From: Cohaesibacter sp. ES.047
GTDB taxonomy: Bacteria; Pseudomonadota; Alphaproteobacteria; Rhizobiales; Cohaesibacteraceae
Assembly (NCBI RefSeq): GCF_900215505.1
Contig: NZ_LT907844.1
Span: 2,762,501-2,826,500 of the forward strand
Direction of reading: 5' to 3'
DNA: 64,000 nt
The position numbers were made by a program, and so were the translations under genes. A model generated the notes under the pieces. The model was not told the DNA's origin, did not search any database, and saw only the letters and a list, made by a program, of their open reading frames with translations. This document shows, one piece after another, positions 3,561 to 54,908 of the stretch (positions are counted from its first letter, which is position 1; each line of letters begins with the position of its first letter).

Positions 3561-4976
3561 TTAGTCTGCTGCGTCGTGGAGATAGAAATCCCAGCCCAGA
3601 TACTGCTTGGTCGCATCGACAATGGCATCACTCACTGATGCAAAATTTGCAGCGACGTGATGCTCGAAGCCGTTTTCGCAAATATAATGCAGCAGCTTCT
3701 GCATGCTTGGGATTTCAACAACACCGGCGCCGCCGAATGTCTCCAGAGGATCTTCGGTAAACTTTCCTTCCCCGACATAACCACGGATGCGGCCGGAGGT
3801 ATCGTCCGTACTGACCCGGATGTAGGTCATGTGCCCGGCCTTGATTGAACCATCGACCGTCCCATAGGTGTTTTCCTTTCCAACAGTGCCGGCGATAATC
3901 TCCTGGAAATCCATCTTGTAGTCTTTGAAGAATTCCTTCGGCAGATTGCTGCAGTGGAAACAGACAGCCTTGTTGGCGTTTGCACCGTAGTTGTTGTTCC
4001 AGTCGAGCAGCGCACTTGGCGATCCCGACGCCAGCGCAAGCATATGCATGCCAATCAGGCCGCAGACATCAACCTCACAGGCGCTGGAAATAAGCTTGGA
4101 ACTCATCATGCTCATCATCGTGCACGGTACGACGCCGTAGTTTTCCTCAAGAGACGTCCAGCACTGGATGGCGCTGATCGAGACGTCAGCCTCTTTCATC
4201 CATTCTTCCGTCACCGCAGCCAATTTGGCTTGCCGGAGGATAGCCGGGTTTGGCACGCCATCGGTCGAGATATAGTTCTTAATAGCATCCAGCTTTTCAG
4301 TGACGATTGCGGCGTTGTCGTCAAGCCTTGAAACCCGGCCCAGAATTTCTGACAAATCAAGAGTGACGACAGAAATGCCAGCAGCTTCGAGAAGCTTTTC
4401 GCTATAGCGCACCGTATTGAACGCCTCTGGCCGAGCACCGATGGCACCGATGCGGAGCCCGCGCAAGCCGCCAACGACGCGACAGGTTGCCGAGAACCGC
4501 GAGAGGTCTTCCTGAAACTCATCACTGAGTGGATCGACACAGTGCGATTTCGTCAGGGAGTAGCGGATACCATATTGTCGAAGGTTGTTGCAGGCTGACA
4601 TCTTTCCGCAGAAGCTGTCGCGCCGCCACTGGATCGACATATTCTTCGGATCATCCGGAGTTGCCTGAATCAGCACCGGCACTTTCAAGCCTGAAAGCCT
4701 GATCGTATCGGCAATTGGCCGCTCCTCACCAAAGTTGGGAAGCGTGACAATAACCCCGTCAATGTCATCAGAATGGGCTTTGAAGAGCGCAGCGCACTGT
4801 TTCGCATCAGCGAACGACTGAACAGCGCCATGCTGAGTGTCTTCCGGGCTGAGAACAATACACTTGTGGCCGGCTTTCTCCAGAGCGTTGATCATATGCT
4901 CGCGTCCGGTCGACGCGAGATGACCCGGAAAGAAGCCACGGCTTCCCACCACAACACCGAAAGTCATCGTTTTCAT
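3561..4976 (-). CDS. L-fucose/L-arabinose isomerase family sugar isomerase
   Basis: Cytosolic aldose-ketose isomerase of the FucI/AraA fold, 471 residues from the chosen ATG at 4976. That start is preceded by AGAAAGGACTT, a good ribosome-binding site; a longer frame upstream has no such site. Visible features are an N-terminal Rossmann-like GVVVGSRGFFPGH region, then EENYGVVPC, ACEVDVCG and CFHCSNLP. The E, E/D and H in these blocks are the likely metal and catalytic residues by family analogy. The sugar cannot be named; FucI-like enzymes also act on sulfoquinovose, rhamnose-like and other sugars. It is alone, with a strong palindrome upstream and a LacI regulator 12 kb away across IS debris that may once have been adjacent. 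Confidence 0.8.
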   Translation of the reverse strand: MKTMTFGVVVGSRGFFPGHLASTGREHMINALEKAGHKCIVLSPEDTQHGAVQSFADAKQCAALFKAHSDDIDGVIVTLPNFGEERPIADTIRLSGLKVPVLIQATPDDPKNMSIQWRRDSFCGKMSACNNLRQYGIRYSLTKSHCVDPLSDEFQEDLSRFSATCRVVGGLRGLRIGAIGARPEAFNTVRYSEKLLEAAGISVVTLDLSEILGRVSRLDDNAAIVTEKLDAIKNYISTDGVPNPAILRQAKLAAVTEEWMKEADVSISAIQCWTSLEENYGVVPCTMMSMMSSKLISSACEVDVCGLIGMHMLALASGSPSALLDWNNNYGANANKAVCFHCSNLPKEFFKDYKMDFQEIIAGTVGKENTYGTVDGSIKAGHMTYIRVSTDDTSGRIRGYVGEGKFTEDPLETFGGAGVVEIPSMQKLLHYICENGFEHHVAANFASVSDAIVDATKQYLGWDFYLHDAAD

Positions 4977-5588
4977 TTTAAGTCCTTTCTCGGATTTCAT
5001 TTTAAGTGCCTCCTGCCACCCTTTTGAAATGCGTGCCGGTGAGGCTGTTTGCCGCTCAAGCCTTCTCGTCGCTTCTGATGCGCTTGCAATCCCTCCAGAG
5101 GCCAATGAACTCTTCCTGTCGTTTGGAGGAAGACCTCAAGTCACACTGACCGACGGCATCGGAAACGTCATGGCCAAGTTGGTTGGATACTTGCGAAAAA
5201 CCATCAAAAATGCCATTAATGAGGTTCGTACCTCATTAATGAGATAGCTGTCAATCATTGCTATTGATATGATGAAAATCACAATTTTTGCTAAAAAATT
5301 CAAATAATAGGGACTTTTATCAGTTTTAGAGATTGATCCTTACTCTATTTTCTGGATTCTTGATGAAATAGGTTTTGGTTTTGGGTCTTAATGAGTTACG
5401 TACTTCACCTTATATATTCTTGTGCTTCGCCGCATTTCTGTCTTTGGCGTTCATGAAACAGAGATTTCAGGAGTGCGGTTGAAAAAGGAGGTTTCCGTGT
5501 TGTCCTGAATGATTCAATTCGCGGCTTAAGGTGGTGATTTGGCCTCAAGCGGCTGGTTATTTACTTGTATATAGTTCCAAACCCCTTA
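4977..5588. other. Upstream region of the isomerase gene, no convincing gene
   Basis: About 600 bp lie between the isomerase start and the IS5 remnant. Short frames exist on both strands but show no recognisable product or ribosome-binding site. The stretch holds one near-perfect palindrome at 5214-5241 and an AT-rich tract around 5250-5420 that would suit a promoter. Anything further upstream was displaced by the IS5 insertion. Confidence 0.5.
5214..5241. promoter_or_regulatory. 12-bp-arm perfect palindrome, probable operator for the isomerase gene
   Basis: CATTAATGAGGT is followed by TCGT and then the exact reverse complement ACCTCATTAATG. It lies about 240 bp upstream of the isomerase start, with no T-run, so it looks like a regulator-binding site rather than a terminator. 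LacI or GntR-type dimers bind sites of this size; which protein binds is unknown. Confidence 0.55.
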
Positions 5589-6429
5589 GAGCCTGACCGA
5601 AAAGTAGTTGAGCGATATCAGCAGTTTGTGATTCACAGTCTTTGCGAAGAGATGAAGGATCATATGAGCTGGACTGATATTACCCGGCAGGAGCATAGCC
5701 GAAAATCAGATCAATATCCAAGCGATTTGACGGATGCGGAATAGTCCCTGTTGACGCCCCTGTTGCCACCGGCCAAGTCTGGCGGTCGACCAAGAACGAC
5801 GGACCTGCGGGATGTTGCCAATGTGATTTTGTATATTGCCAGTTCCGGTTGCCAATGGGGCATGCAGCCCAAGGACTTTCCGCCAATGACGACCGTTTAG
5901 GGCTATTTCTATGACTGGCGGGATCCCCGGTTATGATGCTGGGAAAAAAGATCAAGGGCGCAAACGGCATATCATTACCGATACCATTGGCTTGATGCAA
6001 TTTGTCGTCGTTCATGCCGCCGACATTAAGGATCGAGATGGAGCGCCTGATGTGCTCAAAAGCATTCGGGGCCGTTTCCCATGGCTGCGTCATGTCTTCG
6101 TTCCCTCTCGACGGCGCTTCGCTTGTCTGCCGGGCAATGGATGGCGGATATGCCGGAGAAAAATTGAGGACAGCGTTGAAGGGGCATCGTGACTGGACCA
6201 TTGAAATCATCAAACGCTCTGATACGGCCAAGGGCTTTGAGGCCTTGCCAAGGCGATGGGTGGTTGAACGTACCTTCGCGTGGCTCGGGCGATGTCGCCG
6301 CCTCGCCAAGGATTGGGAGCAAAGCATCGAAAGCTCAACCGCTTGGGCATTGGTAGCCAGTATCAGGTTCCTCACCCGGAGAATTGCAAAATACTGATAT
6401 CCCTCATAAAATTTAGATTCAGACCCTAA
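5589..6429 (+). mobile_element. IS5-family (IS427-like) element, copy 1, degenerate
   Basis: The ends read TTAGAGCCTGA on the left and, in reverse complement, TTAGGGTCTGA on the right. They enclose a decayed transposase. A second, shorter copy at 17,935 shares the same internal deletion. The element separates the isomerase upstream region from the DJ-1 remnant. Confidence 0.75.
5664..6397 (+). pseudogene. IS5-family transposase, internal deletion plus frameshifts and stops
   Basis: Starting at MSWTDITRQEHSR, the frame meets a TAG after LTDAE and another where the codon before GYFYDWRD should be. It then jumps directly from the WRD block to GYDAGKK...RKRHIITDT. The stretch that normally joins these blocks and carries the first catalytic aspartate (around VIDSQSVK) is missing. 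Later parts are spread over two frames: the middle FVVVHAADI region and the C-terminal [19 protein letters not shown] block. It cannot make an active transposase. Confidence 0.8.
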
Positions 6430-7373: not shown

Positions 7374-8102
7374 ATGAAGTCCGAATACGTAATCGCACTC
7401 ATTAAATGGAGCCGCCGCCACGTCGAGCTCACGACATTGTCCCTTTTGAGCGTCACTTTGGTCGCGATATGGACGCTGGCAGAATTAATTGAAGAAGTTG
7501 CCGAAGGCTCAACCCAAAGCCTTGATCGTGATATCCTCTTGCTTCTGCGAACATCTGGCGATCTATCCGATCCGATCGGCCCGTGGTGGCTGGAAGAAAT
7601 GGGACGCGATCTGACGGCCCTGGGCGGGGTCGCCGTCCTTGTTCTCACAACACTTATAGCTTCTGTGTTCTTCTTGCTGCGTCACCGCTGGACGTCGATG
7701 CTGTATCTAGTCGCAACAGTAGGAAGCGGTATCGTGCTCAGCAGTATCGCAAAAGAATTCTTTGATCGCCCTCGACCCGATCTGGTGCCCCATGGGTCAA
7801 TGGTCCAAACAGCCAGCTTTCCCTCGGGGCATTCCATGATGGCCGCGATTGTCTATCTGTCGATAGGAGTGCTGATTGCCCGCGTCCAGCCAGGGCTTAT
7901 TCTCAAGGTCTATATCTTGATGGTCGCTGTTTTGTTGACGATTCTTGTCGGAATAAGCAGAGTTTACATGGGTGTCCACTGGCCTACCGATGTTGCTGCG
8001 GGCTGGCTCGCAGGAGGGGTGTGGGCAATGATTTGCCTGATGGTCGCCGACAGATTGGCCAAGCGCGGTCATATGGAGCACGAAGCTCACGAGGATGCCT
8101 GA
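7374..8102 (+). CDS. PAP2-superfamily membrane phosphatase
   Basis: This 242-residue inner-membrane protein has about six hydrophobic segments and the three acid-phosphatase motifs in order: KEFFDRPRP (about residue 128), PSGHSMMA (about 148) and SRVYMGVHWPTD (about 193). The conserved K, R, S, H and D residues are all present. Family members remove phosphate from undecaprenyl pyrophosphate, phosphatidic acid or related lipids on the periplasmic side. The substrate here is not evident. It sits in a stress-type cluster. The gene immediately downstream on the other strand is truncated against its 3' end, a sign of a past deletion. Confidence 0.88.
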   Translation: MKSEYVIALIKWSRRHVELTTLSLLSVTLVAIWTLAELIEEVAEGSTQSLDRDILLLLRTSGDLSDPIGPWWLEEMGRDLTALGGVAVLVLTTLIASVFFLLRHRWTSMLYLVATVGSGIVLSSIAKEFFDRPRPDLVPHGSMVQTASFPSGHSMMAAIVYLSIGVLIARVQPGLILKVYILMVAVLLTILVGISRVYMGVHWPTDVAAGWLAGGVWAMICLMVADRLAKRGHMEHEAHEDA

Positions 8103-8304
8103 GAGGGCGAGGCGGAAACAGATCTGAACGCGGCATCATGAACGCCATCATGACAAAAGCCATGGTCGCGCCCATCAGGATCGTCATGTAGGCGCGTGTT
8201 TCACTAAAAAAGATATGCTCGAGAGCGTATGTGTTCAGATACGTCAGTACGCACATAAAAAAGGTGGAGGCCAAGATCATCATTGCAAAGCGAGAGTAGT
8301 TCAT
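7984..8304 (-). pseudogene. Small two-helix membrane protein (DUF305-type N-terminus), truncated
   Basis: The first about 55 residues, from the start at 8304, form two hydrophobic helices separated by SETRAYMT. This is like the membrane anchor found before DUF305 domains. A ribosome-binding site (AAGGAGAAGGA) precedes the ATG. After about 8130 the frame turns Arg/Pro-rich and runs antisense through the end of the PAP2 gene. The native C-terminal domain has therefore been lost at a deletion junction. The N-terminal anchor may still be made. Confidence 0.5.
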
Positions 8305-8372: not shown

Positions 8373-8398
8373 GGAACCTTTTTTCAGCATCCCCCGTT
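8373..8398 (+). promoter_or_regulatory. EcfG-type general-stress promoter upstream of the DUF3008 gene
   Basis: GGAAC at 8373-8377, a 17-base spacer and CGTT at 8395-8398 match the alphaproteobacterial EcfG (general stress response) consensus exactly. The site is 34 bp ahead of the DUF3008 start, leaving room for a short leader. The downstream CAP gene probably shares this promoter. Confidence 0.75.
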
Positions 8399-8431
8399 GT
8401 CGGATTGAGACCTGACAGCGAGAGGGAACCC

Positions 8432-8614
8432 ATGCCAGCCAAATCGAAAGCACAACAGAAAGCCGCCGGGGCGGCACTTTCCGCCAAACGGGGAGAGACA
8501 AAAAAGAGCGCATTGCAGGGTGCCGCTTGCGAAATGCTCGACTCGATGTCTGAAGAGCAACTCGAAGATTTTGCTAGCACCGAGCGCAAGGGGAAACCCG
8601 ATCACAAGCGCTGA
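8432..8614 (+). CDS. DUF3008 small basic stress-associated protein
   Basis: This protein is 60 residues, starting MPAKSKAQQKAAGAALSAKR and ending KGKPDHKR, which is the DUF3008 family pattern. The start was placed at the ATG at 8432, preceded by AGAGGGA, rather than at the longer in-frame ATG. The molecular function of the family is unknown; it is often found in general-stress regulons of alphaproteobacteria. It lies directly behind an exact EcfG promoter and 33 bp ahead of a secreted CAP protein, so the two are likely co-transcribed. Confidence 0.85.
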   Translation: MPAKSKAQQKAAGAALSAKRGETKKSALQGAACEMLDSMSEEQLEDFASTERKGKPDHKR

Positions 8615-8647
8615 GACTTCAGCCCAACTGCCTCGAAAGGACGACCG

Positions 8648-9547
8648 ATGGCTCTGAGACTACTCATCGCCGCTTTACTGGCCGGCACTGTTACCATGGT
8701 TCAGGCAGAGAGCGTCATGGACGGACTGCGCGAGCGTGCGCTCGAGCTCGTCAACACATCGCGTGCAGACGAAGGCCTGCCCACACTGACGGCAGGCGAA
8801 GATTTGAACGCCTCCGCGATGGCCCATGCACAGGACATGCTGAAACGAAACTATTATTCTCACACCTCCCCCGAAGGTGAAGGGCCGAGAGAGCGCTACC
8901 TTGAAGCCGGCGGCAGTGAGTGGGAACTGGTGGCCGAAAATATCGCCAAATGCACGAGTTGTCAGACGCCCCCGGACATCAACCGGGTCGAGGCATTTCA
9001 CAAGGGATGGATGAACAGCGCCGAACACCGCGCCAATATCTTGCGCAAAGGGCTGTCACGGTTCGGCTTTGCGACAGCGTCGAGCGACAACGTCATCTAT
9101 GCCGTTCAAACCTTCGCTGGGCCCGGCACGACGCGGGGTGATGGCACCGAAGCACTCTCCGTGGGAGACGCCACGGAGATGGCTCTCGATCAGCTCAACG
9201 CGGCCCGGTCCAAAGCAGGGTTGCCGCAGATCAAAGCCAGCGACACCCTGACAAATAGCGCCGCCAGTATGCTCCCCGAAGACCTGTCTGGATATCGCCT
9301 AAAAGACTTGAAGGGTCTATCGGAAATCGAGGGAAACTGGGCTCGACTATCCGCTGTTGCGGGAGCGTGCAGCGGATGTGGTCAAGAGTTGGTGGCAGGT
9401 GATGTGAGGAGTTTTCTGTCGGACTGGTTAAGTGAGGGGAACCCGAACCGTGAGCGGCTATTCGATAAGAACTTCACGCACGCGGGCTTCGAATTGCTAG
9501 CAGACGGAGAAGGACGCAAGTTCGGGCTCTTGCTGCTAGCAGAATGA
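8648..9547 (+). CDS. Secreted CAP/SCP-domain protein, with a second degenerate CAP-like half
   Basis: 299 residues with a clear signal peptide (residues 1-20, cut after VQA). An SCP/CAP domain follows: ALELVNTSRADEGLPTLT, SAMAHAQDMLKRNYYSHTSPEG, AENIAKC and HKGWMNSAEHRANIL. The conserved histidines and glutamates of bacterial CAP domains are visible. A second stretch from about residue 175 (LDQLNAARSKAGLPQIKASD to DWLSEGNPNRERLFD) repeats the same pattern weakly. Paired cysteines (CTSC, CSGC) in both halves suggest periplasmic disulfides. The function is unknown; the gene probably shares the EcfG promoter ahead of the DUF3008 gene. Confidence 0.85.
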   Translation: MALRLLIAALLAGTVTMVQAESVMDGLRERALELVNTSRADEGLPTLTAGEDLNASAMAHAQDMLKRNYYSHTSPEGEGPRERYLEAGGSEWELVAENIAKCTSCQTPPDINRVEAFHKGWMNSAEHRANILRKGLSRFGFATASSDNVIYAVQTFAGPGTTRGDGTEALSVGDATEMALDQLNAARSKAGLPQIKASDTLTNSAASMLPEDLSGYRLKDLKGLSEIEGNWARLSAVAGACSGCGQELVAGDVRSFLSDWLSEGNPNRERLFDKNFTHAGFELLADGEGRKFGLLLLAE

Positions 9548-9658
9548 TTCCCTGAAGCATCCCGGTAGTCTCGGCGCCGCTTGACCTAGGGAATTGGTCT
9601 AATGAATCCACGCTGTTGATGTTTTCCGAGTTGTCTCACAAATAAATTAGGACGCCAC

Positions 9659-10816
9659 ATGTCAGACAAAGGCCTTTCCCCAGCAGATGGACACAGCGCA
9701 TGGCATAAAGCGAACCCTTGGCTGATCACCATTATTGTGATCATTCTCTCGGGTTGGGCTCTTCGTGCGATGACGACCGTTGTGGTGCCGGTCATTCTGG
9801 CCTTTTTTCTTACGCTGATGGTTCGTCCTCTCGACAGAATGACGGCAGCGCATTTGCCTACAAGGATCGCTTGGTTGGGGCATGTTGTCGCGCTTGCTAC
9901 TGTCCTGTGTGGCGTGGGGCTTTTTGTAACCTGCCTTTGGATCGCGGCGGGACAGATTGCAGATCAGTTTTCCGGGGCCGAAAAAATGCCGCTCATGTCT
10001 TGGTTGGATCTTGATATGCGTGCCGACGCAACCGCCGCACCAGACAGACAGGGTACAAATACAGAATCCAGCATACTTCTGCGAGAAACCTATACCAGCG
10101 CAGTGAAATCACTGGGAGATGCGGCATCGCAGTGGATCTCGGGATTTGCCAACAGTGTAATCAACAAGACTGGTAGGACGCTTGGAGGGGTGATTTTCGT
10201 CATCTTCCTGACCTTGCTGATGCTGGTTGAAGCTCCGCACTGGAGCGAAAAACTGGATGCGGTCGCATCTCGGCGTACAAACCGCGATATGCAGAACACC
10301 CTACGTGTCATTTCCGAGAGACTCATGCGCTACCTTGTCACCCGCACGGTGATGGGCTTATTGACAGCGGCGCTCTATGCGCTTTGGTTATGGCTTTTCG
10401 GGGTCGACCTGCTGCTGGTATGGGGATTTCTGGCCTTCCTGCTGAATTTTGTTCCCACGATAGGATCCCTCGTTGCTGGCGTGCTGCCAGTGATCTACGC
10501 GTTTGTCCAGAAAGACCCATCGTCCGCATTGATCATCGGAGGTGGCGTTCTGGTCATCGAACAGGTAATCGGTAACTTTATCGACCCAAGAGTTCAGGGA
10601 CAGCAAGTGTCTGTTTCACCTCTGGTGGTGTTGATTGTGTTGGCACTTTGGGGCTGGCTATGGGGGATCATTGGCACCGTTCTGGCTGTGCCGATCACTA
10701 TCACCGTAATAATCGCCTTCAGTCATTTCGATACTCTGCGGCCCATCGCGCTTTTCCTGAGCAACGAGACCTCTATGGAGGATCTGGACCGGATAGCCAA
10801 CACCAAGCGCTTCTAA
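9659..10816 (+). CDS. AI-2E family (YdiK/TqsA-like) membrane transporter
   Basis: 385 residues. Hydrophobic segments are at about 18-65 (two helices), 75-100, 175-200 and a cluster from about 225 to 345. Family hallmarks are VVPVILAFFLTLMVRPL near the N-terminus, LNFVPTIGSLVAGVLPV and the C-terminal GTVLAVPITI. These inner-membrane proteins export or exchange small solutes, including autoinducer-2 in TqsA and Na+/H+ in some relatives; the substrate cannot be told. The periplasmic region between helices is longer and more polar than in many relatives. It stands in the stress cluster. Confidence 0.85.
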   Translation: MSDKGLSPADGHSAWHKANPWLITIIVIILSGWALRAMTTVVVPVILAFFLTLMVRPLDRMTAAHLPTRIAWLGHVVALATVLCGVGLFVTCLWIAAGQIADQFSGAEKMPLMSWLDLDMRADATAAPDRQGTNTESSILLRETYTSAVKSLGDAASQWISGFANSVINKTGRTLGGVIFVIFLTLLMLVEAPHWSEKLDAVASRRTNRDMQNTLRVISERLMRYLVTRTVMGLLTAALYALWLWLFGVDLLLVWGFLAFLLNFVPTIGSLVAGVLPVIYAFVQKDPSSALIIGGGVLVIEQVIGNFIDPRVQGQQVSVSPLVVLIVLALWGWLWGIIGTVLAVPITITVIIAFSHFDTLRPIALFLSNETSMEDLDRIANTKRF

Positions 10817-11156
10817 TCTTGCTCTTCGGGCAGAATGCAGTGGGATAGCCTCAAACCGCAGCCTGGATAAGGACGCCATGATATGAGGAATATGACACAT
10901 GAAAGTAAACCCCGAATAGACTAAGTCAAAGATGGCGTGCCTGTCCGTCATGGCCAAGCTGCAATTTCCCCAGAATGACCGGTAAGACACGCAATGTAGG
11001 CTTCGTAGGGTCCGGTTGATTTGACCCACACGGGAGAGTTGGATTGAAAAATACGGAACAAAATCCGGGTGTATCGGGTTGAATTGAGAGCAGCGGGTGC
11101 AGCCTGTAATTGGTGGCGCCCCGTTCTAAACCTATAATCCAACTTGGAGGAAAATT
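10817..11156. other. Gene-free stretch before the PRC-barrel gene
   Basis: About 340 bp with no supported gene. Frames on the minus strand here are low-quality. It contains a possible EcfG-type promoter at 11,055-11,080. Confidence 0.5.
11055..11080 (+). promoter_or_regulatory. Possible EcfG-like promoter of the PRC-barrel gene
   Basis: GGAAC, a 17-base spacer and GGTT (one mismatch to CGTT) are located about 77 bp upstream of the start. It is weaker than the two exact sites nearby. Confidence 0.4.
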
Positions 11157-11576
11157 ATGAAACGTCTTCTTCTTGCAACCGCCGCAGCTGCTCTTGTCTC
11201 GACACCCGTCCTCGCCGACATGATCAACTATTCCAACCTGATCCGGACCCGCGACATTACTGGCGGCACCATCTACACCATGAACGAGTCCTACGACGAG
11301 GGGTCTTGGGAAGCCGACACTTATTACACGAGTACCGCCGAAGGATGGAATGATATCGGTGAAATTGAAGATGTGATCCTTAACCGAGAAGGCAAAATGA
11401 TTGGCATTGTTGCCGAAGTCGGCGGTTTTCTCGACATTGGTGACAAACATGTGATGCTACCAGTAGAGGATGTGAAGCTTGTCGCCGTTGACGACGAGAG
11501 CTATTCCTACGTCACGCGTCTTTCCGAAGAACAGCTCGAAGAGCGAGAAAGTGTTGACGAAGGCTGGTGGGACTGA
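11157..11576 (+). CDS. Secreted PRC-barrel domain protein
   Basis: 139 residues beginning with a signal peptide (MKRLLLATAAAALVSTPVLA). A PRC-barrel fold follows: WNDIGEIEDVILNREGKMIGI, then VGGFLDIGDKHVMLPVEDV. Periplasmic PRC-barrel proteins of this type are common in alphaproteobacterial stress regulons; the ligand and role are unknown. A strong ribosome-binding site (TTGGAGGAAAATT) precedes the ATG, and a clear terminator follows the stop, so it is a single-gene unit. Confidence 0.87.
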   Translation: MKRLLLATAAAALVSTPVLADMINYSNLIRTRDITGGTIYTMNESYDEGSWEADTYYTSTAEGWNDIGEIEDVILNREGKMIGIVAEVGGFLDIGDKHVMLPVEDVKLVAVDDESYSYVTRLSEEQLEERESVDEGWWD

Positions 11577-11609
11577 CGCCTCAAAACGCCCTATCCAGCA
11601 CGACATTCC

Positions 11610-11644
11610 TACCCCCGCAGGTTTTGACCGGCGGGGGTATTTTT
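11610..11644 (+). terminator. Rho-independent terminator after the PRC-barrel gene
   Basis: TACCCCCGC pairs with GCGGGGGTA across a short loop and is followed by TTTTT. Confidence 0.85.
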
Positions 11645-11647
11645 GTT

Positions 11648-11661
11648 GGCTCTGTTGCAAA
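11648..11661. repeat. IS6-like terminal sequence scar
   Basis: GGCTCTGTTGCAAA resembles the terminal inverted repeat of IS6-family elements. No transposase or second end was found within the next 200 bp, so this is at most a scar. The stretch 11,662-11,785 holds nothing recognisable. Confidence 0.3.
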
Positions 11662-11785
11662 AAAAACTTGAGGAGCCATCGAAGGGCCATTCTGCCGGAT
11701 TTTGGCCGTGCCGGTGACGCTCTATTTCGTCTGAGACAGCAGGCGACCGGTGTTCGCATCACTGATGGCATATCACATTCTGTTT

Positions 11786-11810
11786 GGAACAAACCCGCCA
11801 ACTCGCCGTT
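11786..11810 (+). promoter_or_regulatory. EcfG-type promoter of the PQQ dehydrogenase operon
   Basis: GGAAC at 11,786-11,790, a 16-base spacer and CGTT at 11,807-11,810 match the general-stress consensus exactly, 60 bp upstream of the first gene. Confidence 0.72.
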
Positions 11811-11870: not shown

Positions 11871-12251
11871 ATGTCCGACATCGCAACATCCCCCTCCAAT
11901 CCGTCAGGCCGTCATGAAACGGTCTGGGGCGTCAAGATCCTCGGCTGGGTCTGCGTCCTTTTCGGTGCGGTCATTCTGGCTGGGGGCATCTGGCTGATCT
12001 TTCTTGGCGGAAGTTGGTATTACGGCATCGCGGGCCTTGGCCTGACGGCCACCGGTATCCTGCTGAACCGCTACATGATGGCGTCCGTCTGGCTTTATCT
12101 CGTTGTCTGGGTCGGAACGGTCGCCTGGGCTTGGTGGGAAGTCGGAGCCGACTGGTGGGCCGAGGTCCCGCGACTTGTCGCACCGACCCTGATCCTCCTT
12201 CTTGTGCTGCTCTGTATTCCAGCGCTGAAACGCCACTCTTCCAAACATTGA
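11871..12251 (+). CDS. Membrane-anchor subunit of PQQ glucose dehydrogenase type (split N-terminal domain)
   Basis: 126 residues with four to five hydrophobic helices: ILGWVCVLFGAVILAGG, WYYGIAGLGLTATGILL, VWLYLVVWVGTVAWAWW and PTLILLLVLLCIPAL. This matches the membrane domain that forms the N-terminal ~150 residues of single-chain membrane glucose dehydrogenase (Gcd). Here it is a separate protein, 16 bp ahead of the catalytic subunit. The domain binds ubiquinone and anchors the enzyme to the inner membrane. The ATG at 11,871 follows AGAAGGAGG, a strong ribosome-binding site. Confidence 0.8.
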   Translation: MSDIATSPSNPSGRHETVWGVKILGWVCVLFGAVILAGGIWLIFLGGSWYYGIAGLGLTATGILLNRYMMASVWLYLVVWVGTVAWAWWEVGADWWAEVPRLVAPTLILLLVLLCIPALKRHSSKH

Positions 12252-12267: not shown

Positions 12268-14367
12268 ATGACACGTATTATTTCTTTCGCCACGGCCGCT
12301 ATCCTAGCAGGTTCTATACCTCTTCATGCGCAGCAGGCGACCACGAACGAGCCGACACTATCCCCGCCGTCCAGCTCAACAAATGAGACCGCGCCGGAGG
12401 CGAAGTCTGCGGAACCGGATACAGCCCAAACCCAGGACGAGTTCCCGGACGCCGAGGAGGAGACCACAGCACAAACTGCCCAAAGCCTAACCGAAGACGC
12501 CCAGACGACAAGCGGCACAATCGTCACCCCTGCCCAGCCTCCGATGGAACTGGGCAGTGACTGGCCCTATTGGGGCGGAGACGCGCAGGCAACCCGCTAT
12601 TCCCCACTGGATCAGATTACGGCCGAAAATGTCGGCCAGCTGGAACAGGTCTTCACCTTCCACACCGGCGATCTGCCCGAAGGCACGGCGAAAGGCAAAT
12701 ATTCGCCCGAAGTTACACCCCTCAAGGTCGGCGACGATCTGCTGATGTGTTCCGCAATGAATATCCTCATTTCGGTGAACGCCGCCACCGGCGAGGAAAA
12801 CTGGCGCTTCGATCCGGGCGTCCCGAACGATGCGATTCCCTACGGTGCCACATGCCGCGGCGTCTCGGTTTACAGAAATCCCGACGCAGCCGAAGATGAT
12901 GCCTGCGCAACGCGCGTGATTCAGGGCACGCTGGATGCCAAGCTGGTTGCTGTTGATGTTGAAACCGGCGCGCCGTGCGAAGACTTTGGGGAAAACGGCA
13001 CCGTCGACTTGTGGCAGGACATTGGTGAGCGGGTGCCAGGCTGGTATGCCGTGACGGCTCCACCTGCCATCGTGCGTGGCGACGTCGTGACGGGTGCACA
13101 GGTCAAGGACGGTCAGGCGGAAGATGCGCCCTCCGGCGTGGTCCGTGGTTATGACGCCGTGACCGGGGAGCTTGCCTGGGCCTGGGATCTGGCCGCTCCC
13201 GACCAGAACCGCAATGGCCCGCCGGAAGGCGAGGTTTACACCCGGGGCACGCCCAACATGTGGACCACGGCCGTCGCTGACGAGGAGCTGGGCATGGTCT
13301 ACCTACCGCTGGGCAATTCCTCGGTCGATTATTATGGGTCCAACCGTAGCGAGGTGGAGGACGAATACGCCACCTCGCTTGTTGCGCTGGATGCGACGAC
13401 TGGCGAGGAGGTCTGGCATTTCCAGACTGTGCGCCATGATGTGTGGGACTACGACCTCGGTTCCCAGCCAACGCTGATTGACTATCAGGATACCCCCGCG
13501 GTGTTGTTGCCATCCAAGCAGGGCGACATCTACATCCTGAACCGCAAAACGGGTGAGCCACTGACTCCGGTCGGCGAACTCACCGATCTGCCGAAGGGCG
13601 ACATTGAACCGAATTACATTTCGGATACCCAGCCGATCAGCAAATGGCACACCCTGCGCAAGCCGCCGCTCGAAGAAAAGGATATTTGGGGCTTTACCCC
13701 CATCGATCAGCTCTGGTGCCGCATCCAGTTCCGCCTCGCCAATTACGACGGGTTCTTCACGCCGCCCTCCAGTGAAAAGCCATGGATCCAGTATCCCGGC
13801 TACAACGGCGGGTCCGACTGGGGGTCGATCGCTGTCGATACGGACCGTGGGATCATTATCGCCAACTACAATGATGTGCCCAACTACAACCGGCTGGCGC
13901 CGCGAGATGAAGTGACGTCCAAACCGATCAACGAGATGGAGACCGGCGAAAGCGGCGGCACGAATGCCGAAGGTGCCGCAGACCCCCAAACCGGTGCCCC
14001 ATACGGGATCAGCGTCAATGCCGGCTGGCGGAACAATGTGACCGGCGTGCCCTGCACGCGTCCGCCTTATGGTGGCATTCGGGCAATCGACCTTGAAACC
14101 GGTGAAACCCTGTGGGACCGCCCGATTGGCACCGCGCGCCGCAATGGCCCGTTCGGCATTCCCTCTTTCCTGCCCTTCGACATCGGCACGCCGAACAACG
14201 GCGGGGCAGTCGTGACTGCCGGCGGACTTGTCTTCATCGCGGCGGCGACGGACAACCTGTTCCGTGCGATCGACATTGAAACCGGCGAGACCGTCTGGTC
14301 GACCGTGTTATACCATCGAGCAGAATTCAGAACCGATATGCCCATTCTCGCAATCCGATGGACATGA
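12268..14367 (+). pseudogene. PQQ-dependent glucose/quinate dehydrogenase catalytic subunit, 3' end cut off by IS630
   Basis: A signal peptide (residues 1-22, ending LHAQQ) and an acidic Thr/Glu-rich linker to about residue 90 precede an eight-bladed quinoprotein propeller. The propeller begins SDWPYWGGDAQATRYSPL and includes VRGYDAVTGELAWAWDL, HDVWDYDLGSQPT, TPIDQLWCRIQFR and GWRNNVTGVPC. Tryptophan-docking repeats are visible. At about 14,307, after GETVWSTVL, the frame enters an IS630 end. The last roughly 50 residues, including the final blade that closes the ring, are lost. It would oxidise sugars in the periplasm with PQQ; this copy is probably inactive. Confidence 0.82.
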
Positions 14368-14990
14368 TGATCCAAGGTTGACCGACGGGTTTGTTCCAGG
14401 CTTCGCAACATATCGCGAGGATTTCCTCTTAGGATGAGAAGATCCGGTTGGAAAGCCAGTTTTTCCGCATGAACTGCCATATATTCTCGACCGGGTTCAA
14501 TTCAGGAGACCTTGGTGGTAGCGGGAGCAATGTGATGTTGTCCGGCACGTCGAGATTTTGCGTTGTGAGAGGTAATGGGATGATCCTCCTATCCCTCAAT
14601 CTCAGCTAATATAGCTTGAATTTGGCGGAAAGGCAGTTCATCCCATTACCTTTGTGTGCCAGCCGGCCTGATCGAGAATGAGGATTGCGTGGGCTCCATC
14701 AGCGACTTGGCCGGAGATTTCTTCCAAATGCCACTGCATGGCTTGGATGTTGCAAAAGGGCAGAACCAATCCAGCCCCGACACCACGGGCCGGGCAGATA
14801 GCCCCGAAGATATAGACTGACTTTGTCCTTTGATCTTTCGGTGCAACAGGGCGGGTTCCGCGCTTTGCCCAACGACGTGTGATCTTGGTTTTCTGTCCGA
14901 CACGCGCCTCGTCCTGCCACCACACTTCTATCGGGGTTCCTTTCGGGAGCTTTTTGCAGATTTCTGCCAACTCGGCTGGGAAGTTTTTTT
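14308..14990 (-). mobile_element. IS630-family element, older truncated copy
   Basis: The left end TTATACCATCGAGCAGAATTC resembles the terminal repeat of the newer IS630 copy. On the minus strand the transposase C-terminal half can be read: PIEVWWQDEARVGQK, FGAICPARGVGAGLVLPF, ILDQAGWHT and then SPELNPVENIWQF. A TAA follows IFSS near the end. The frame is split by an 84-bp insertion. The upstream half is displaced by the newer IS630 at 14,992. It is a dead remnant and was the element that cut the dehydrogenase gene. Confidence 0.8.
14568..14651. mobile_element. 84-bp MITE-like palindromic insertion with 5-bp target duplication
   Basis: The element starts AGAGGTAATGGGATGA and ends with TCATCCCATTACCT, giving a 14-bp perfect terminal inverted repeat. 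It is flanked by TTGTG on both sides (14,563-14,567 and 14,652-14,656). Removing the element and one TTGTG restores the IS630 transposase reading from GWHT to TQNLDVPDNIT. It has no coding capacity. The parent transposon is not recognised. Confidence 0.75.
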
Positions 14991-15004
14991 AATACCAACG
15001 GCAT

Positions 15005-15565
15005 TTAATTCTGACCTTCTTGAGCCCATTTTCTCATACCTATTGAATGGATGATGGTTGGGTTGGCGGAGAGGCTCTTCCATGCTTGGCAACCAGCATC
15101 AAGAATGGCGGCATAGTCTTCGAAGACCCGATTGGACAGGAAGGTACCGCGCAGATACTGCCAAATATTCTCAACTGGGTTCAGTTCCGGTGATTTGGAA
15201 GGCAACAGGAGGATGGTGATATTCTTGGGCACGTTGAGTCTGCTTGTCGTATGCCATCCGGCACGATCCATCAGCACCACGGCATGAGCGCCGCGCGCCA
15301 CTGTCCTTGAGACTTCTTCGAGGTGCATTTGCATGGCCTGTGTATTTGCAAAAGGCATCATCAATCCCGCGCCAACGCCACGCGCTGGACATATTGCACC
15401 GAACAGATAGGCATTTTTATATCGCTGATCGGCTGGCAGACGTGGTCTGGTTCCCTTTTTTGCCCATAGTCGGGCCAGTCCATTCTTCTGACCAAGCCTA
15501 GCCTCATCTTGCCACCAAATCTCGATGGGCTTGTTCTTTGGCAAATGGCCTACATGCGCTGCCAA
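15005..15565 (-). CDS. IS630 transposase, C-terminal catalytic frame (DDE)
   Basis: 186 residues containing PIEIWWQDEARLGQKNG, FGAICPARGVGAGLMMPF, VVLMDRAGWHTTSRLN and SPELNPVENIWQYLRG, the catalytic D, D and E blocks of IS630 transposases. It overlaps the upstream frame and is joined to it by a -1 shift at an A7 run. It is therefore normally made as a fusion rather than from its own start. Confidence 0.88.
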   Translation of the reverse strand: MAAHVGHLPKNKPIEIWWQDEARLGQKNGLARLWAKKGTRPRLPADQRYKNAYLFGAICPARGVGAGLMMPFANTQAMQMHLEEVSRTVARGAHAVVLMDRAGWHTTSRLNVPKNITILLLPSKSPELNPVENIWQYLRGTFLSNRVFEDYAAILDAGCQAWKSLSANPTIIHSIGMRKWAQEGQN

Positions 15566-16101
15566 CGTTGCGGAGAAGTTTTTTTGAAAGCATCAATGAC
15601 TTCAGGCTTTTGTTCTGGATGTTGAGGTCGACCAGATATGCGCACATACCCCATGCGGCGCAAAAGATCCCGTACTCCACGTTCCTTGTAGGAGACCCCA
15701 AACCGCTCTTGGATCACACGCACCAGATCCTGGCTACGCCAGACAGAGACGCCGTCCTTCTCAGGATCAGGACCGGTTTCAACGATAGCAACAAACTCTT
15801 CGAGCTGTTCTGGGCTCAAGCGCATGGGAGCGCCGGTTGCTTTGATGTCGACAAGACCATCGGTGCCTTGCTCATTGAAGCGAAGAACCCAATCTCGCAA
15901 AGTCTGGCGGTCCATACCGCCGACTTTGGCGGCATCAGCACGGTTCATGCCGTCATAGACAGCCGCAATGGCCAGTAGGCGGCGGCTCTGTTTGGCATTG
16001 CGGCATCCTTTGGCAAGACGGCGCAAACTATCGGCGTCAAAAGCATCGCTAAGAATCAAAGCGGCAGACATGGCAAAATCTCCTTTGCCATGTTGAATCA
16101 C
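15550..16101 (-). CDS. IS630 transposase, N-terminal DNA-binding frame
   Basis: 183 residues with tandem helix-turn-helix segments: LRRLAKGCRNAKQSRRLLA, YDGMNRADAAKVGGMDRQTL, and a Winged-helix-like VIQERFGVSYKERGVRDLLR. The frame ends soon after a CAAAAAAACTT tract, where a -1 slip continues into the catalytic frame (KNFSATLAAHVGH). This two-frame arrangement is common in the family and is thought to limit transposition. Confidence 0.88.
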   Translation of the reverse strand: MIQHGKGDFAMSAALILSDAFDADSLRRLAKGCRNAKQSRRLLAIAAVYDGMNRADAAKVGGMDRQTLRDWVLRFNEQGTDGLVDIKATGAPMRLSPEQLEEFVAIVETGPDPEKDGVSVWRSQDLVRVIQERFGVSYKERGVRDLLRRMGYVRISGRPQHPEQKPEVIDAFKKTSPQRWQRM

Positions 16102-16189
16102 GCCAGTGCTAAAAATGGAATCCCTAAAGAGTCAGAACTTCACGCCCTTGGTATTATGTTTCAGGCAAGATGGGGCCCCGGATTGGTCC

Positions 16190-17850: not shown

Positions 17851-17934
17851 GCCAGATTACTCCCGTTTCTGTGAAAAGACCGTATCAGTTAAAGTATTGG
17901 CTTTGGCGCACCAAGGACACCAGCCCTGCACATA

Positions 17935-18385
17935 GAGCCTGACCGAAAAGTAGTTGAGCGATATCAGTAGTTTGTGATTCACAGTCTTTGCGAAGAGATG
18001 AAGGATCATATGAGCTGGACTGATATCACCCGGCAGGAGCATAGCCGAAAATCAGATCAATATCCAAGCGATTTGACGGATGCGGAATAGTCCTTGTTGA
18101 CGCCCCTGTTGCCACCGGCCAAGTCTGGCGGTCGACCAAGAACGACGGCCCTGCGGGATGTTGCCAATGTGATTTTGTATATTGCCAGTTCCGGTTGCCA
18201 ATGGGGCATGCAGCCCAAGGACTTTCCGCCAATGACGACCGTTCAGGGCTATTTCTATGACTGGCGGGATTCCCGGTTATGATGCTGGGAAAAAGATCAA
18301 GGGCGCAAACGGCATATCATTACCGATACCATTGGCTTGATGCAATTTGTCGTCGTTCATGCCGCCGACATTCAGGATCGAGATG
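17935..18385 (+). mobile_element. IS5-family element, copy 2, truncated
   Basis: It begins with the same GAGCCTGACCG terminus as copy 1 and runs nearly identical to it through WRDSRL. It shows the same internal deletion joining the WRD block to YDAGKK. It stops abruptly after the FVVVHAADI region. The early TAG after LTDAE is shared with copy 1, but the second TAG of copy 1 is CAG here. Confidence 0.8.
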
Positions 18386-18397
18386 GAGGGGGTGGAT

Positions 18398-18692: not shown

Positions 18693-19420
18693 TCATGCCC
18701 TGTTTTTGAATCTCCAGCTTTCGTTGCCGGTTTCCACGATGTCACAGTGATGAGTAAGCCTGTCGAGTAGCGCGGTTGTCATCTTTGGGTCGCCAAAGAC
18801 GGAAGGTCATTCACCGAATGACAGATTGGTCGTGACAATGATGGAGGTGCGTTCATAGAGCCTGCTGATGAGATGGAATAGGAGTTGCCCCCCAGTTTGG
18901 GCAAAGGGCAGATAGCCCAGCTCATCAAGGATCAGGAAGTCGAGACGAGAGATCAAATCGGCGGTGCGCCCTTGTCGATCAGCCCTTGCTTCATTGTCCA
19001 GTTCATTGACCAGATCGACGACATTGAAGAAGCGTCCGCGCGCACCATTGCGAATGCAGGCCCGGGTGATGCTGACCGCGAGATGGGTCTTGCCGGTTCC
19101 CGTGCCTCCAATCAATACCAGATTGCGTTGCTGTGCCAGGAAGTTGCCGCCAGCCAGATCACGAATGAGTGTCTCATTGACTGGTGTTGCCTCGAAGTTG
19201 AACTCATCGACCTCCTTGGCCAGCGGCAGTTTAGCAATGGTCATCTGATATTTGATTGACCGCGCCTTCTTCTCATTGATCTCGGCATTGCGTAGATCAC
19301 CAATGATTTGCTGCGTTTATGCTGGCGTTTCACCGCCGTGGAAAGAAGCTCGTCATAAGCTGCCCTCATGCCTTAAAGCTTCAATTGGCTCATCGCATCC
19401 AGGACGTGGGATCGTTCCAT
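18693..19420 (-). pseudogene. istB: IS21 helper ATPase IstB, several lesions
   Basis: The reading starts at 19,420 with MERSHVLDAMSQLKL, then TAA, then GMRAAYDELLSTAVKRQH. A frameshift follows before the AAA+ core: LVLIGGTGTGKTHLA Walker A and FLILDELGYLPF Walker B. A TGA after NLSFGE replaces the tryptophan codon that should precede [20 protein letters not shown]. The family length of about 245 residues is reached only if three lesions are ignored. Confidence 0.8.
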
Positions 19421-19424
19421 GGTC

Positions 19425-20917
19425 TTATCTCCTCAGGCTATCATATCGATTGCAGTCGGCGACTGGCTCGCAGTCCAGCCGCAAGGCATCCGGAGTTGAG
19501 ATTGTAAGGGGTGGTGGTGGGTCTCGATGCCGAGCCAGGATGTTCAGGATCACGCTGGCAGAATATGTGCTCTCGGCCAGAGCTTCCACGCAGGCCGCTT
19601 CGACCGCATCCATGCCATCGGTGAGAACAGCACCAAGGATGTCGACCATTTTTCGATCACCACGGGCAGAGCTTCCAGCTTGCGTTTAACCCGCCGCATT
19701 GCAGCAGGAAGCTCCCATTCCTTAAAGGGAGCTCCGTTGCGCAAGGCTCCAGGCTTGCGGCTGAGAACCGGGATATAGTGCAACGGATTATAGATGGTTT
19801 TGCCACGTCCAAAGGAACGGACATGTTCACCGACAACCTTTCCATCCTGCCAGCACTCAATCCGGCCAGCATAGGCCCGGATCTCAACGGGGCGTCCGAC
19901 GGCTCGTGCATCAACGGAATAGCGGTTGTTGTCGAAGCGGACTAAGCAGGTTTTGGAGACTGAGGCTGGCAGAGCATGGAACCCATCGAACGGGCCAATA
20001 TAGGGTACGAGGCTGGATCGTTCAGCTTCGAATATTTCCCAGACTGTCCTGTCAGGAAAGTCGGGATGTTTATTGGCTTTGGCCCAAGCAATACTGCGGT
20101 CTTCCAGCCAGGCATTCAGTTCGGCATAATCCTTGAACTTTGGCCGAGGCACAAAGAAACGCCGGCGGATGACGCCAACCTGGTTCTCAACTTGGCCCTT
20201 CTCCCATCCGGCGGCAGGGCTGCAGGCCGTAGGATCAACCAGATAATGGCCACACATCTGCTGGAAACGCCGATTGAATGAGCGTTCTCTGCCCACGAAG
20301 ATCGCATCAACCGCTGTCTTCATGTTGTCGTAGATGCCCCGGGCACAGGCCCCGCCAAAGAAGGCGAATGCCTTGTCGTGAGCATCAAACACCATCTCCT
20401 GCGTCTCGCGAGGATAGGCACGCACATAGGGAAAGCGGCTATAGCATAGGCGGACATGGGCAACTTTGATGGCGACGGTTGCTCCATCAAGCAGGACAAC
20501 TTCATGGCTCCAGTCAAACTGGTAAGCTTCCCCGGGATCAAAGCTGAGAGGAATATAGGCGCTGGCGGATGCTTCCGAATTCTCCTTCGTCCAATGGGCC
20601 GCATAACGTCGGACCGCGTCATAGCTCCCGTCATAGCCCTTGGTACGGAGTTCCTCGTAAATCCGCACAAGGGTCAAGCGCTCCCGCTTGGGCTTGCGTT
20701 TGTTATCCGTCAGGAGTTCGTCTAGGTCAGATTGCCATGGGCCTATCTTGGGGCGGGGCTGTGACCGGCGCTCATAGTTGAATTCTGTTGCCCCAGACCG
20801 AATGACCTTGCGCACCGTATTCCGCGAAATGCGCAAGTCACGGTAGATCTGTTTGAGTGTCTTGCCGTCTTGATAATAGGCTCGTCTGATCTTTGCTATC
20901 GTTTCCACAACCAACAT
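19425..20917 (-). pseudogene. istA: IS21 transposase IstA, frameshifted near the C-terminus
   Basis: The first about 420 residues from the likely ATG at 20,917 are intact. They include the HTH TLKQIYRDLRISRNTVRKVI, the integrase-core aspartate in YQFDWSHEVVLLDG, GIYDNMKTAVDAI, and GWEKGQVENQVG with the catalytic glutamate. At about 19,650 a frameshift separates them from the C-terminal MVDILGAVLTDGMDAVEAA block, which ends at 19,425. The catalytic core could be made, but the C-terminus is wrong. Confidence 0.82.
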
Positions 20918-21182
20918 CCCTGATAACACTCCCCGAAAAATCCTGGGAGCATCATTGCAAAAAATTCAGGGGGGCACTTTTGGACGCCGATTACCCCAAT
21001 ATAGGGGTCAATTTTGCATGCCGGTTCACATATGGTGGGATTGGACCGGTTTGGGCGGGGGCAATTCAGTTTACTGTACGCGATTTGTACGGATTTCGGG
21101 AATGTTTGAGCGAAAGCTACCGATCAGCTCAGTCCAACAGAAACATGGGATTTCTGAAAACACCAATTACATCAATGAGATG

Positions 21183-21231
21183 TTGGTGCACCCGGCAGGA
21201 TTCGAACCTGCGGCCTCTGCCTTCGGAGGGC
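21183..21231. repeat. attL: 49-bp copy of the tRNA-Arg 3' end
   Basis: The sequence runs from TTGGTGCACCCGG to CGGAGGGC and is identical to 54,831-54,879. Beyond it the tRNA match stops (CTAAGG instead of AGCGCT), so this is an attachment-site scar and not a gene. Confidence 0.9.
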
Positions 21232-29845: not shown

Positions 29846-31381
29846 GTGTCATTCACTTTTGGTCTTGTTGACCTATTCGCTGGTCCAGGCGGGCTGGGCG
29901 AAGGCTTCTCCTCTGTGATCGATGAGGGTAATCATCCCTTTCGTATCGGGATTTCGGTGGAGAAGGAGGAATCTGCTCACAAAACCCTTCGGTTGCGGGC
30001 GTTTCTTCGTGAGTATTATGCCCTCCATGGCTACGTTCCAAAACAGTTCATTAGCTTTCATGCGGGGCAAATAGAAGAACCGGATTGGGCAAGTGTCGAT
30101 GCTCATGTTTGGAAACGCGCATCGGAGGAAGCTCGGGCTCTGGAGCTTGGATCTCAGACGGCGGCCGAAGCCCTAGATCTGGCAATAGCCACTCTCCAAA
30201 ATGATCATGATGATACCATTCTCATCGGGGGGCCTCCTTGTCAGGCCTACTCGCTTGTCGGTCGAGCCAGATCAAGGGGCAAAGTCGACTACGTTCCCGA
30301 GGATGATGAAAGGCACTATCTCTTTCGGGAATATATTCGCGTCCTTGACAAATTGAGGCCGGCTGCGTTTGTCATGGAAAACGTTAAAGGCATGCTGTCC
30401 TCAACGGTAAAGAGCCGTCTTGTCTTTGAAATGCTGATGGAAGACCTTTCATCTTTGGGGACCGGACACGGTCATCACTACGAACTTCGATCAATCCTTG
30501 TTGAAAATGGAAAGGCGAAGCTGCAAGAACCGAAGAAGTCTTCCGATTTTGTCGTGCACGCTGATGCGTTCGGGGTTCCTCAGCGAAGGCACCGCGTCAT
30601 CATCGTGGGGATTCGGTCTGATCTCGCAAAACAAGCAGATCTTGCTGCTATTCCGATCTGCGCCAAGACAAACACTGTTGCTGATGTGATCGGTTCGTTG
30701 CCGCAGCTTCGCAGTGGCATCAGTCGAGGCAAAGATGATGTCAAGACATGGCGATCTGAGGTGCAGAAGGCAGCCCAGCTGCTGACAAACCTTTATGATC
30801 GTGAAGAAACCGAGACACTCCGAGCGGTCTTTGCATCAATTGTTGAGGGAATTGATAGCGGAGAGGCACCTTCACTTCGTGCCAGTGCCCAGTTGCCAAA
30901 TGAGTATGGTCAATCAGTAGACGAATTGCTGGGCTGGATCGAGCGACCTTGTCTGGATGGGATTTCCCAGCATGAAACACGTGGCCATATGCGATCTGAT
31001 TTGGGGCGCTATCTATTTTGTAGTGCATTTGGGCAAGCTCTAGGCTACAGCCCCAAGGCTGCGGACTTTCCGGTCGAACTTTATCCGAACCATCGCAACT
31101 GGCACACTGGCATATTCAATGATCGTTTCAGGGTACAGTTGGCAAAGGAGGCCTCAACCACGGTCACAAGCCACATTTCCAAGGACGGGCACTATTTCAT
31201 TCATCCAGATCCAATGCAGTGTCGTAGTCTGACAGTGAGAGAAGCTGCGCGCCTTCAGACATTTCCGGATGACTATCTGTTTTTGGGCAACAGAACGCAG
31301 CAGTATGTCCAGGTCGGAAATGCCGTGCCGCCATATCTCGCAAGGCAGATCGCAGCTTTGGTTTTGAAGGCTTTATCTTGA
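29846..31381 (+). CDS. DNA (cytosine-5)-methyltransferase
   Basis: 511 residues with all motifs in order: LFAGPGGLGEGF (I), LIGGPPCQAYS with the catalytic cysteine (IV), FVMENVKGM (VI), VPQRRHRVIIVG (VIII), LTVREAARLQTFPDD (IX) and VQVGNAVPP (X). A GTG start follows AGGAGA. The long segment between VIII and IX is the target recognition domain; the target is not predictable. It protects host DNA or marks self in a restriction system with the convergent HNH-led operon, whose last gene overlaps it by 9 bp. Confidence 0.93.
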   Translation: MSFTFGLVDLFAGPGGLGEGFSSVIDEGNHPFRIGISVEKEESAHKTLRLRAFLREYYALHGYVPKQFISFHAGQIEEPDWASVDAHVWKRASEEARALELGSQTAAEALDLAIATLQNDHDDTILIGGPPCQAYSLVGRARSRGKVDYVPEDDERHYLFREYIRVLDKLRPAAFVMENVKGMLSSTVKSRLVFEMLMEDLSSLGTGHGHHYELRSILVENGKAKLQEPKKSSDFVVHADAFGVPQRRHRVIIVGIRSDLAKQADLAAIPICAKTNTVADVIGSLPQLRSGISRGKDDVKTWRSEVQKAAQLLTNLYDREETETLRAVFASIVEGIDSGEAPSLRASAQLPNEYGQSVDELLGWIERPCLDGISQHETRGHMRSDLGRYLFCSAFGQALGYSPKAADFPVELYPNHRNWHTGIFNDRFRVQLAKEASTTVTSHISKDGHYFIHPDPMQCRSLTVREAARLQTFPDDYLFLGNRTQQYVQVGNAVPPYLARQIAALVLKALS

Positions 31382-32503: not shown

Positions 32504-32520
32504 TTTCTGCTCCCATAGAA

Positions 32521-34323: not shown

Positions 34324-34324
34324 G

Positions 34325-41019: not shown

Positions 41020-41147
41020 ATCTTCTATGTCAACACTTGAACACCACCCTTTGGAGATAATCTCTTCTGCCCAGTTGGCGCAGATTTCGCGATTATACCA
41101 AGGGCGTGAAGTTCTGACTCTTTAGGGATTCCATTTTTAGCACTGGC

Positions 41148-41699
41148 GTGATTCAACATGGCAAAGGAGATTTTGCCATGTCTGCCGCTTTGATTCTTAG
41201 CGATGCTTTTGACGCCGATAGTTTGCGCCGTCTTGCCAAAGGATGCCGCAATGCCAAACAGAGCCGCCGCCTACTGGCCATTGCGGCTGTCTATGACGGC
41301 ATGAACCGTGCTGATGCCGCCAAAGTCGGCGGTATGGACCGCCAGACTTTGCGAGATTGGGTTCTTCGCTTCAATGAGCAAGGCACCGATGGTCTTGTCG
41401 ACATCAAAGCAACCGGCGCTCCCATGCGCTTGAGCCCAGAACAGCTCGAAGAGTTTGTTGCTATCGTTGAAACCGGTCCTGATCCTGAGAAGGACGGCGT
41501 CTCTGTCTGGCGTAGCCAGGATCTGGTGCGTGTGATCCAAGAGCGGTTTGGGGTCTCCTACAAGGAACGTGGAGTACGGGATCTTTTGCGCCGCATGGGG
41601 TATGTGCGCATATCTGGTCGACCTCAACATCCAGAACAAAAGCCTGAAGTCATTGATGCTTTCAAAAAAACTTCTCCGCAACGTTGGCAGCGCATGTAG
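41148..41699 (+). CDS. IS630 transposase, N-terminal frame (copy B)
   Basis: Identical 183-residue product to copy A: tandem helix-turn-helix DNA-binding region. It ends just after the A7 tract at 41,664-41,670, where a -1 slip would continue into the catalytic frame. Confidence 0.88.
   Translation: MIQHGKGDFAMSAALILSDAFDADSLRRLAKGCRNAKQSRRLLAIAAVYDGMNRADAAKVGGMDRQTLRDWVLRFNEQGTDGLVDIKATGAPMRLSPEQLEEFVAIVETGPDPEKDGVSVWRSQDLVRVIQERFGVSYKERGVRDLLRRMGYVRISGRPQHPEQKPEVIDAFKKTSPQRWQRM

Positions 41700-54830: not shown

Positions 54831-54908
<78 letters not shown>

Follow-up and report, generated by a model that had tools for sequence, protein, structure and literature searches.

Predicted EcfG promoters precede an apparently acquired, IS-interrupted glucose dehydrogenase operon and neighbouring genes in Cohaesibacter sp. 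ES.047

The stretch of DNA analysed here (64,000 nucleotides, hereafter the window) belongs to the 5.11 Mb, single-contig genome of Cohaesibacter sp. ES.047 and carries a cluster of plus-strand genes, some of which are preceded by sites of the type recognized by the general stress sigma factor EcfG. The genes include a DUF3008 gene of 60 aa (8432..8614; PF11450, E 2.6e-28), a CAP-domain gene of 299 aa that starts 33 bp behind it (8648..9547; PF00188), an AI-2E family transporter gene (9659..10816; PF01594), a PRC-barrel gene of 139 aa (11157..11576; PF05239) and a split PQQ glucose dehydrogenase (GDH), which consists of a membrane anchor of 126 aa (11871..12251; positions 2-101 of the 783 of TIGR03074) and a catalytic chain (12268..14367; PF01011; TIGR03074 positions 142-739 of 783). 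The original prediction named three promoter sites in this cluster, and all three are present where it placed them, on the plus strand: an exact GGAAC-N17-CGTT at 8373..8398, whose end lies 33 bp from the start of the DUF3008 gene (8432); a GGAAC-N17-GGTT at 11055..11080, with one mismatch in the -10 element and its end 76 bp from the PRC gene (11157); and an exact GGAAC-N16-CGTT at 11786..11810, with its end 60 bp from the GDH anchor gene (11871). Each of them thus combines GGAAC with a CGTT-like element 16-17 bp away, shortly upstream of a gene start.

The GDH gene is no longer intact. The sequence of the catalytic chain is native to about 14310; at about 14308-14310 the reading frame enters an insertion sequence (IS), whose end supplies the last 18 codons. 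About 90 bp of the end of this first IS (14308..14988), counted from 14307-14310, recur at six other places in the genome with 85-99% identity. The second IS (14989..16157, minus strand, 1169 bp) is 99.9% identical to 41092-42260 and contains a DDE_3 match in 15005-15562. The window GDH lacks 45 C-terminal residues that are present in its relatives, where the first part of them aligns with solved quinoprotein dehydrogenases, and its propeller is therefore incomplete; a search of the rest of the window for the missing C-terminus gave no credible match. Scored apart, the catalytic chain (730.4 bits) and the anchor (81 bits) do not reach the TIGR03074 cut-off of 832.65. Because the gene is cut by the IS and the 45 residues are missing, the enzyme is probably dead, and the GDH promoter most likely now drives the anchor and a truncated dehydrogenase. 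The cluster as a whole is flanked by two plus-strand copies of a degraded IS-like repeat of 457 bp (5587..6043 and 17933..18388), which are in direct orientation, 12.3 kb apart and 98% identical to each other, and which may be IS5-like, as judged from a sequence motif.

The switch that would read EcfG promoters is encoded in the same genome. NepR was found at C1:1713401-1713505 with a score above the cut-off of the PF18557 profile, and the adjoining open reading frames read as EcfG and PhyR, so that the PhyR-NepR-EcfG switch is present, with NepR identified by profile and EcfG and PhyR by likeness only. The locus is about 1.06 Mb away from the window cluster and has an exact GGAAC-N16-CGTT upstream of nepR. 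The GGAAC-N17-20-GTT consensus given for EcfG in PMC6599016 has the same two boxes.

The number of matches to the pattern does not distinguish the window from random sequence. With a spacing of 15-19 allowed, there are three exact matches in the 64 kb where 2.37 are expected, and at least three were obtained in 39 of 100 shuffles, i.e., no enrichment by count is seen within the window. The third exact match, at 35947, is inside an open reading frame on the opposite strand (35313-38180, with a Z1 domain) and is taken as a chance occurrence. In the entire genome, exact N16/17 matches number 105 vs 249 for the pattern read backwards. Since the window is at chance level and the reversed pattern is the commoner one genome-wide, the count was dropped as evidence, and the case for the sites is built on their position and conservation.

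As for position, 99 of the 105 exact matches (the 3 in the window and 96 elsewhere in the genome) were examined, and 38 of them are intergenic by the calls of a simple, purpose-written gene caller, as compared to 18.7% of flanking bases (p = 4e-6); 24 of these 38 have a same-strand gene start within 200 bp. The genes and reading frames preceded by exact sites include nepR, a native PRC gene and a small open reading frame upstream of a native GDH, and other genes behind intergenic exact sites presumably encode relatives of CsbD, superoxide dismutase and YbhB.

Conservation is best documented for the split GDH operon. The set comprised 54 loci with relatives of the catalytic chain and 4 plasmid loci, 58 altogether. 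BLAST recovered an anchor gene at 46 of these 58 loci (at 42 of the 54 when the plasmid additions are set aside), and the 12 loci without a recognisable anchor were left out; the window's own copies (the window, L058, L076 and L106) were removed before counting. An exact site lies no more than 110 bp from the anchor gene in 18 of the 46 related operons, and GGAAC-N16/17-NGTT does so in 30, whereas 319 permuted motifs applied to the same sequences gave a mean of 0.04 (maximum 2) for the exact form and 0.20 (maximum 7) for the NGTT form. When the boxes were fixed and the spacing was varied from 8 to 29, a spacing of 16 gave 12 matches, 17 gave 6, and any other at most 1. An alignment of nine loci picked for having the site displays fixed boxes and a drifting spacer (L009 has N17 and does not line up with the rest). 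NepR was found in 42 of the 48 genomes behind the GDH loci (L043 is not among them). None of the three anchor loci in NepR-less genomes (L039, L044 and L047) has a site, which is a small number, and for 12 of the 15 site-less operons the genome does have NepR.

The other two sites also leave a footprint, above the permuted-motif controls, where that of the GDH operon is far beyond them. Among DUF3008 relatives, an NGTT site is present within 110 bp in 10 of 20 and an exact one in 2 of 20 (permuted NGTT mean 0.09, maximum 3), and 2 of 6 plasmid additions have a site; the DUF3008 locus L075, which was not refound by local BLAST, is outside these counts. For the PRC gene, 22 of the 29 non-window loci could be counted, the other 7 not being refound by local BLAST: all 5 relatives scoring over 60 bits and 7 of the 22 overall have a site (permuted mean 0.05, maximum 2, for the 22), as do 2 of 3 plasmid relatives. 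The closest PRC relative, L249, which is carried by a Martelella plasmid and is 83% identical at the DNA level, has GGAAC in the same place but its -10 element is gone; 11055 is for this reason the weakest of the three sites, and we regard it as a probable promoter and 8373 and 11786 as strong candidates. Sites thus recur beyond chance upstream of orthologues of the GDH operon, DUF3008 and PRC. For the CAP gene, which the original prediction had grouped with DUF3008, there is no separate footprint (a site in 1 of 7 relatives and in 0 of 1 on plasmids), and its transcription would start at the promoter of DUF3008. Upstream of the PAP2 and AI-2E genes there is no EcfG-type site, the best match having two mismatches. 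With no footprint or no site, CAP, PAP2 and AI-2E were rejected as direct EcfG targets. Relatives without a site, which speak against the EcfG reading, make up 16 of the 46 GDH operons, 10 of the 20 DUF3008 loci and 4 of the 6 plasmid DUF3008 loci; the first figure becomes 15 when corrected for L049, whose anchor start was misplaced and which does have an exact site.

The genome contains a second GDH relative, 38% identical to that of the window and located about 17 kb from nepR. This native GDH is carried by 8 of 17 genus relatives, and in all nine genomes that have it an exact, correctly oriented GGAAC-N16-CGTT is found 416-561 bp upstream of the catalytic open reading frame. No other such site occurs within about 5 kb in the eight relatives, and the 12-kb native GDH stretch of the host has two further ones, of which one is close by on the opposite strand. 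The window anchor has no sequence match in the native GDH stretch, and it is by its position that the small open reading frame, which was examined in this genome only, is taken as the putative anchor gene of the native operon. In the tree, a very long branch sets the native lineage apart. A site also precedes 3 of 4 single-chain plasmid GDHs. As judged from these sequences, then, the EcfG-type site precedes two separate GDH lineages, in split and single-chain forms alike. It had been expected that glucose dehydrogenase under EcfG would be unusual; 30 of 46 split operons, nine of nine native genes and three of four single-chain ones argue the opposite.

A profile search for PqqC gave no match in this genome or in 8 genus relatives; of 6 further genomes with a GDH, 4 likewise gave none and 2 matched strongly. 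Species in which PqqC was not found may depend on external PQQ for their intact GDHs, if the profile has not simply missed a divergent PqqC. In the open-access literature, supplementary tables excluded, we found no published link between EcfG or the general stress response and membrane PQQ-GDH, and no paper on DUF3008; in the portion of PMC2912261 that was available, glucose dehydrogenase occurs only as part of a cited title on UDP-glucose dehydrogenase. It is possible that GDH genes stand in published target tables. We lean towards the view that the general stress response of Alphaproteobacteria has the oxidation of sugars by membrane PQQ-GDH among its general outputs, which has not been reported so far, and that the operon spreads together with its promoter and joins the recipient's regulon at once, even in species in which PqqC was not found and which may use the PQQ of their neighbours. 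We thus propose a testable link, conserved across many genera, of PQQ-dependent sugar oxidation to the general stress response.

Several observations concern the origin of the cluster. DUF3008 was found in only 1 of the 20 family genomes and in 18 of 385 of the class, and the other 19 family genomes contain no counterpart of the 7.4-kb cluster beyond short matches. In the tree, the window GDH falls within Rhodobacterales, where it groups with L004 and L005 (support 100/97), from Pseudooceanicola marinus and Oceanicola sp. 22II-s10i. The absence of the cluster from the 19 family members and the nesting in another lineage, the latter known from the GDH tree only, point to acquisition, i.e., to a transfer of the GDH operon into this genus, with no claim on the distance of the transfer. 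We infer that the other genes of the cluster were acquired likewise. In relatives, some of these genes are also found together: DUF3008 is about 5 kb or less from GDH in L007, L022, L034 and L049, and PRC is beside DUF3008, beside CAP or near GDH. In Sulfitobacter alexandrii, ligD and otsB adjoin GDH. The full gene set of the window was not found at any other locus examined. The description of the cluster as an acquired general-stress module is supported as far as the EcfG-type promoters and the IS-rich, acquired DNA are concerned. The word module is too strong, however, since PAP2 and AI-2E have no sites, GDH alone was placed in a tree and the gene set is unmatched.

Taken together, it is very probable that 8373 is the EcfG promoter of DUF3008-CAP and 11786 that of the split GDH operon, with 11055 less certainly that of PRC, and that the GDH operon was acquired with its promoter and later cut by an IS; EcfG dependence, operon structure and the loss of enzyme activity are what we infer from sequence here. 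In the proposed scenario, the GDH operon would have arrived, promoter included, from a Rhodobacterales-like donor. The recipient's own NepR-EcfG-PhyR switch could have read the acquired promoter at once because the EcfG promoter sequence is common to Alphaproteobacteria. Under stress, PhyR would pull NepR off EcfG, and the freed EcfG would start all three units, DUF3008-CAP, the GDH operon and PRC. The IS insertion into the GDH gene would be a later event. A promoter shared by an entire class would in this way let acquired genes join the stress regulon of the recipient without rewiring.

It seems most improbable to us that the sites arose by chance and that ordinary housekeeping promoters serve the genes instead. 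The counts given above, both in the window and genome-wide, and the match at 35947 inside an open reading frame speak for this reading. Chance does not account, however, for sites at a similar distance in relatives from many genera while the permuted-motif and spacing controls stay near zero, nor for the excess of exact sites between genes (38 of 99 vs 18.7%), nor for the site upstream of the native GDH in every one of the nine genomes that carry this gene. It is also unlikely that another ECF sigma factor, such as one of the ECF26 type or an EcfG paralogue, reads the sites alone or along with EcfG. PMC6180224 describes overlapping target sets and similar consensus sequences for RpoE6 (ECF26) and RpoE2 of Sinorhizobium meliloti, with one PRC-barrel gene activated by both. 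The ECF26 consensus given there is, however, GGAATA with GT, whereas the window sites match GGAAC and CGTT, as does the site upstream of nepR in this genome.

A different question is whether the promoters work but belong to a decaying cargo of no benefit, with GDH dead and the rest on its way out. The IS-cut GDH with its 45 residues gone, the failure to find PqqC in the genome and the IS copies inside and around the cluster are all in line with this. On the other hand, the frames of DUF3008, CAP, AI-2E and PRC are open across their family matches and the boxes of the three promoters are intact, which makes such a decay conceivable but doubtful. It supplements the explanation by EcfG promoters on acquired DNA and is not a replacement for it.

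The closest known system is the alphaproteobacterial general stress regulon governed by PhyR-NepR-EcfG, with EcfG of Sphingomonas melonis and RpoE2 of Sinorhizobium meliloti as examples. The boxes and spacing are the same, a site is similarly found upstream of the NepR locus, and PRC-barrel genes are among the targets, as stated for EcfG in Sphingomonas melonis (PMC6599016) and for RpoE2 in Sinorhizobium meliloti (PMC6180224). The difference is that the targets in the window are located on acquired, IS-ridden DNA. The kind of regulation is known, and it is the breadth of the link to GDH that looks new. Compared to the membrane-bound PQQ glucose dehydrogenases of the TIGR03074 family, the anchor and the catalytic part of the window GDH match successive parts of the model, but they are encoded by separate genes, an arrangement also annotated in relatives on plasmids, and the catalytic chain is truncated and under the model cut-off. 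Finally, with a copy of the IS-like repeat in direct orientation on either side, the cluster is reminiscent of a composite transposon, although both copies of the repeat in the window look degraded.

The acquired gene cluster that includes the DUF3008 gene and the split operon for the membrane PQQ glucose dehydrogenase has a transposase gene on each side, of IS66 (862-2397 in the window) and of IS21 (18807-20929), and between the IS66 transposase gene and the cluster the reverse strand (3561-5105) encodes a protein that carries an L-fucose isomerase C-terminal domain and matches sulfoquinovose isomerase below the cut-off. Beside the DUF3008 gene, a reverse-strand ORF (7984-8304) is directed away from it, with its end overlapping the PAP2 gene; the ORF overlaps DNA that resembles plasmid genes annotated as DUF305. 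PqqC was undetected in 13 of the 15 genomes with membrane PQQ glucose dehydrogenase genes searched, i.e., this genome and related ones.

Around nepR, a gene of the native general-stress locus, the exact EcfG-type motif GGAAC-N16/17-CGTT is matched 8 times within ~21 kb (C1:1711589-1732773, on the single contig of this genome), and native stress genes therefore look clustered there, as judged from the motif.

Because a 49-bp segment of a tRNA-Arg gene, at 54831-54879, has an identical copy at 21183-21231, the sequence suggests an integrated island of ~33.7 kb (21183-54908) with att-like repeats at both ends. Inside this putative island, 29846-41019 contains MzaB, MzaC, MzaD and MzaE matches and a short MzaA match (a 444 aa protein covering profile positions 398-664 of 683); a C5 cytosine methylase and a weak HNH-like protein are also encoded. 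By its predicted gene content, this region looks like a Mza-type defence locus.
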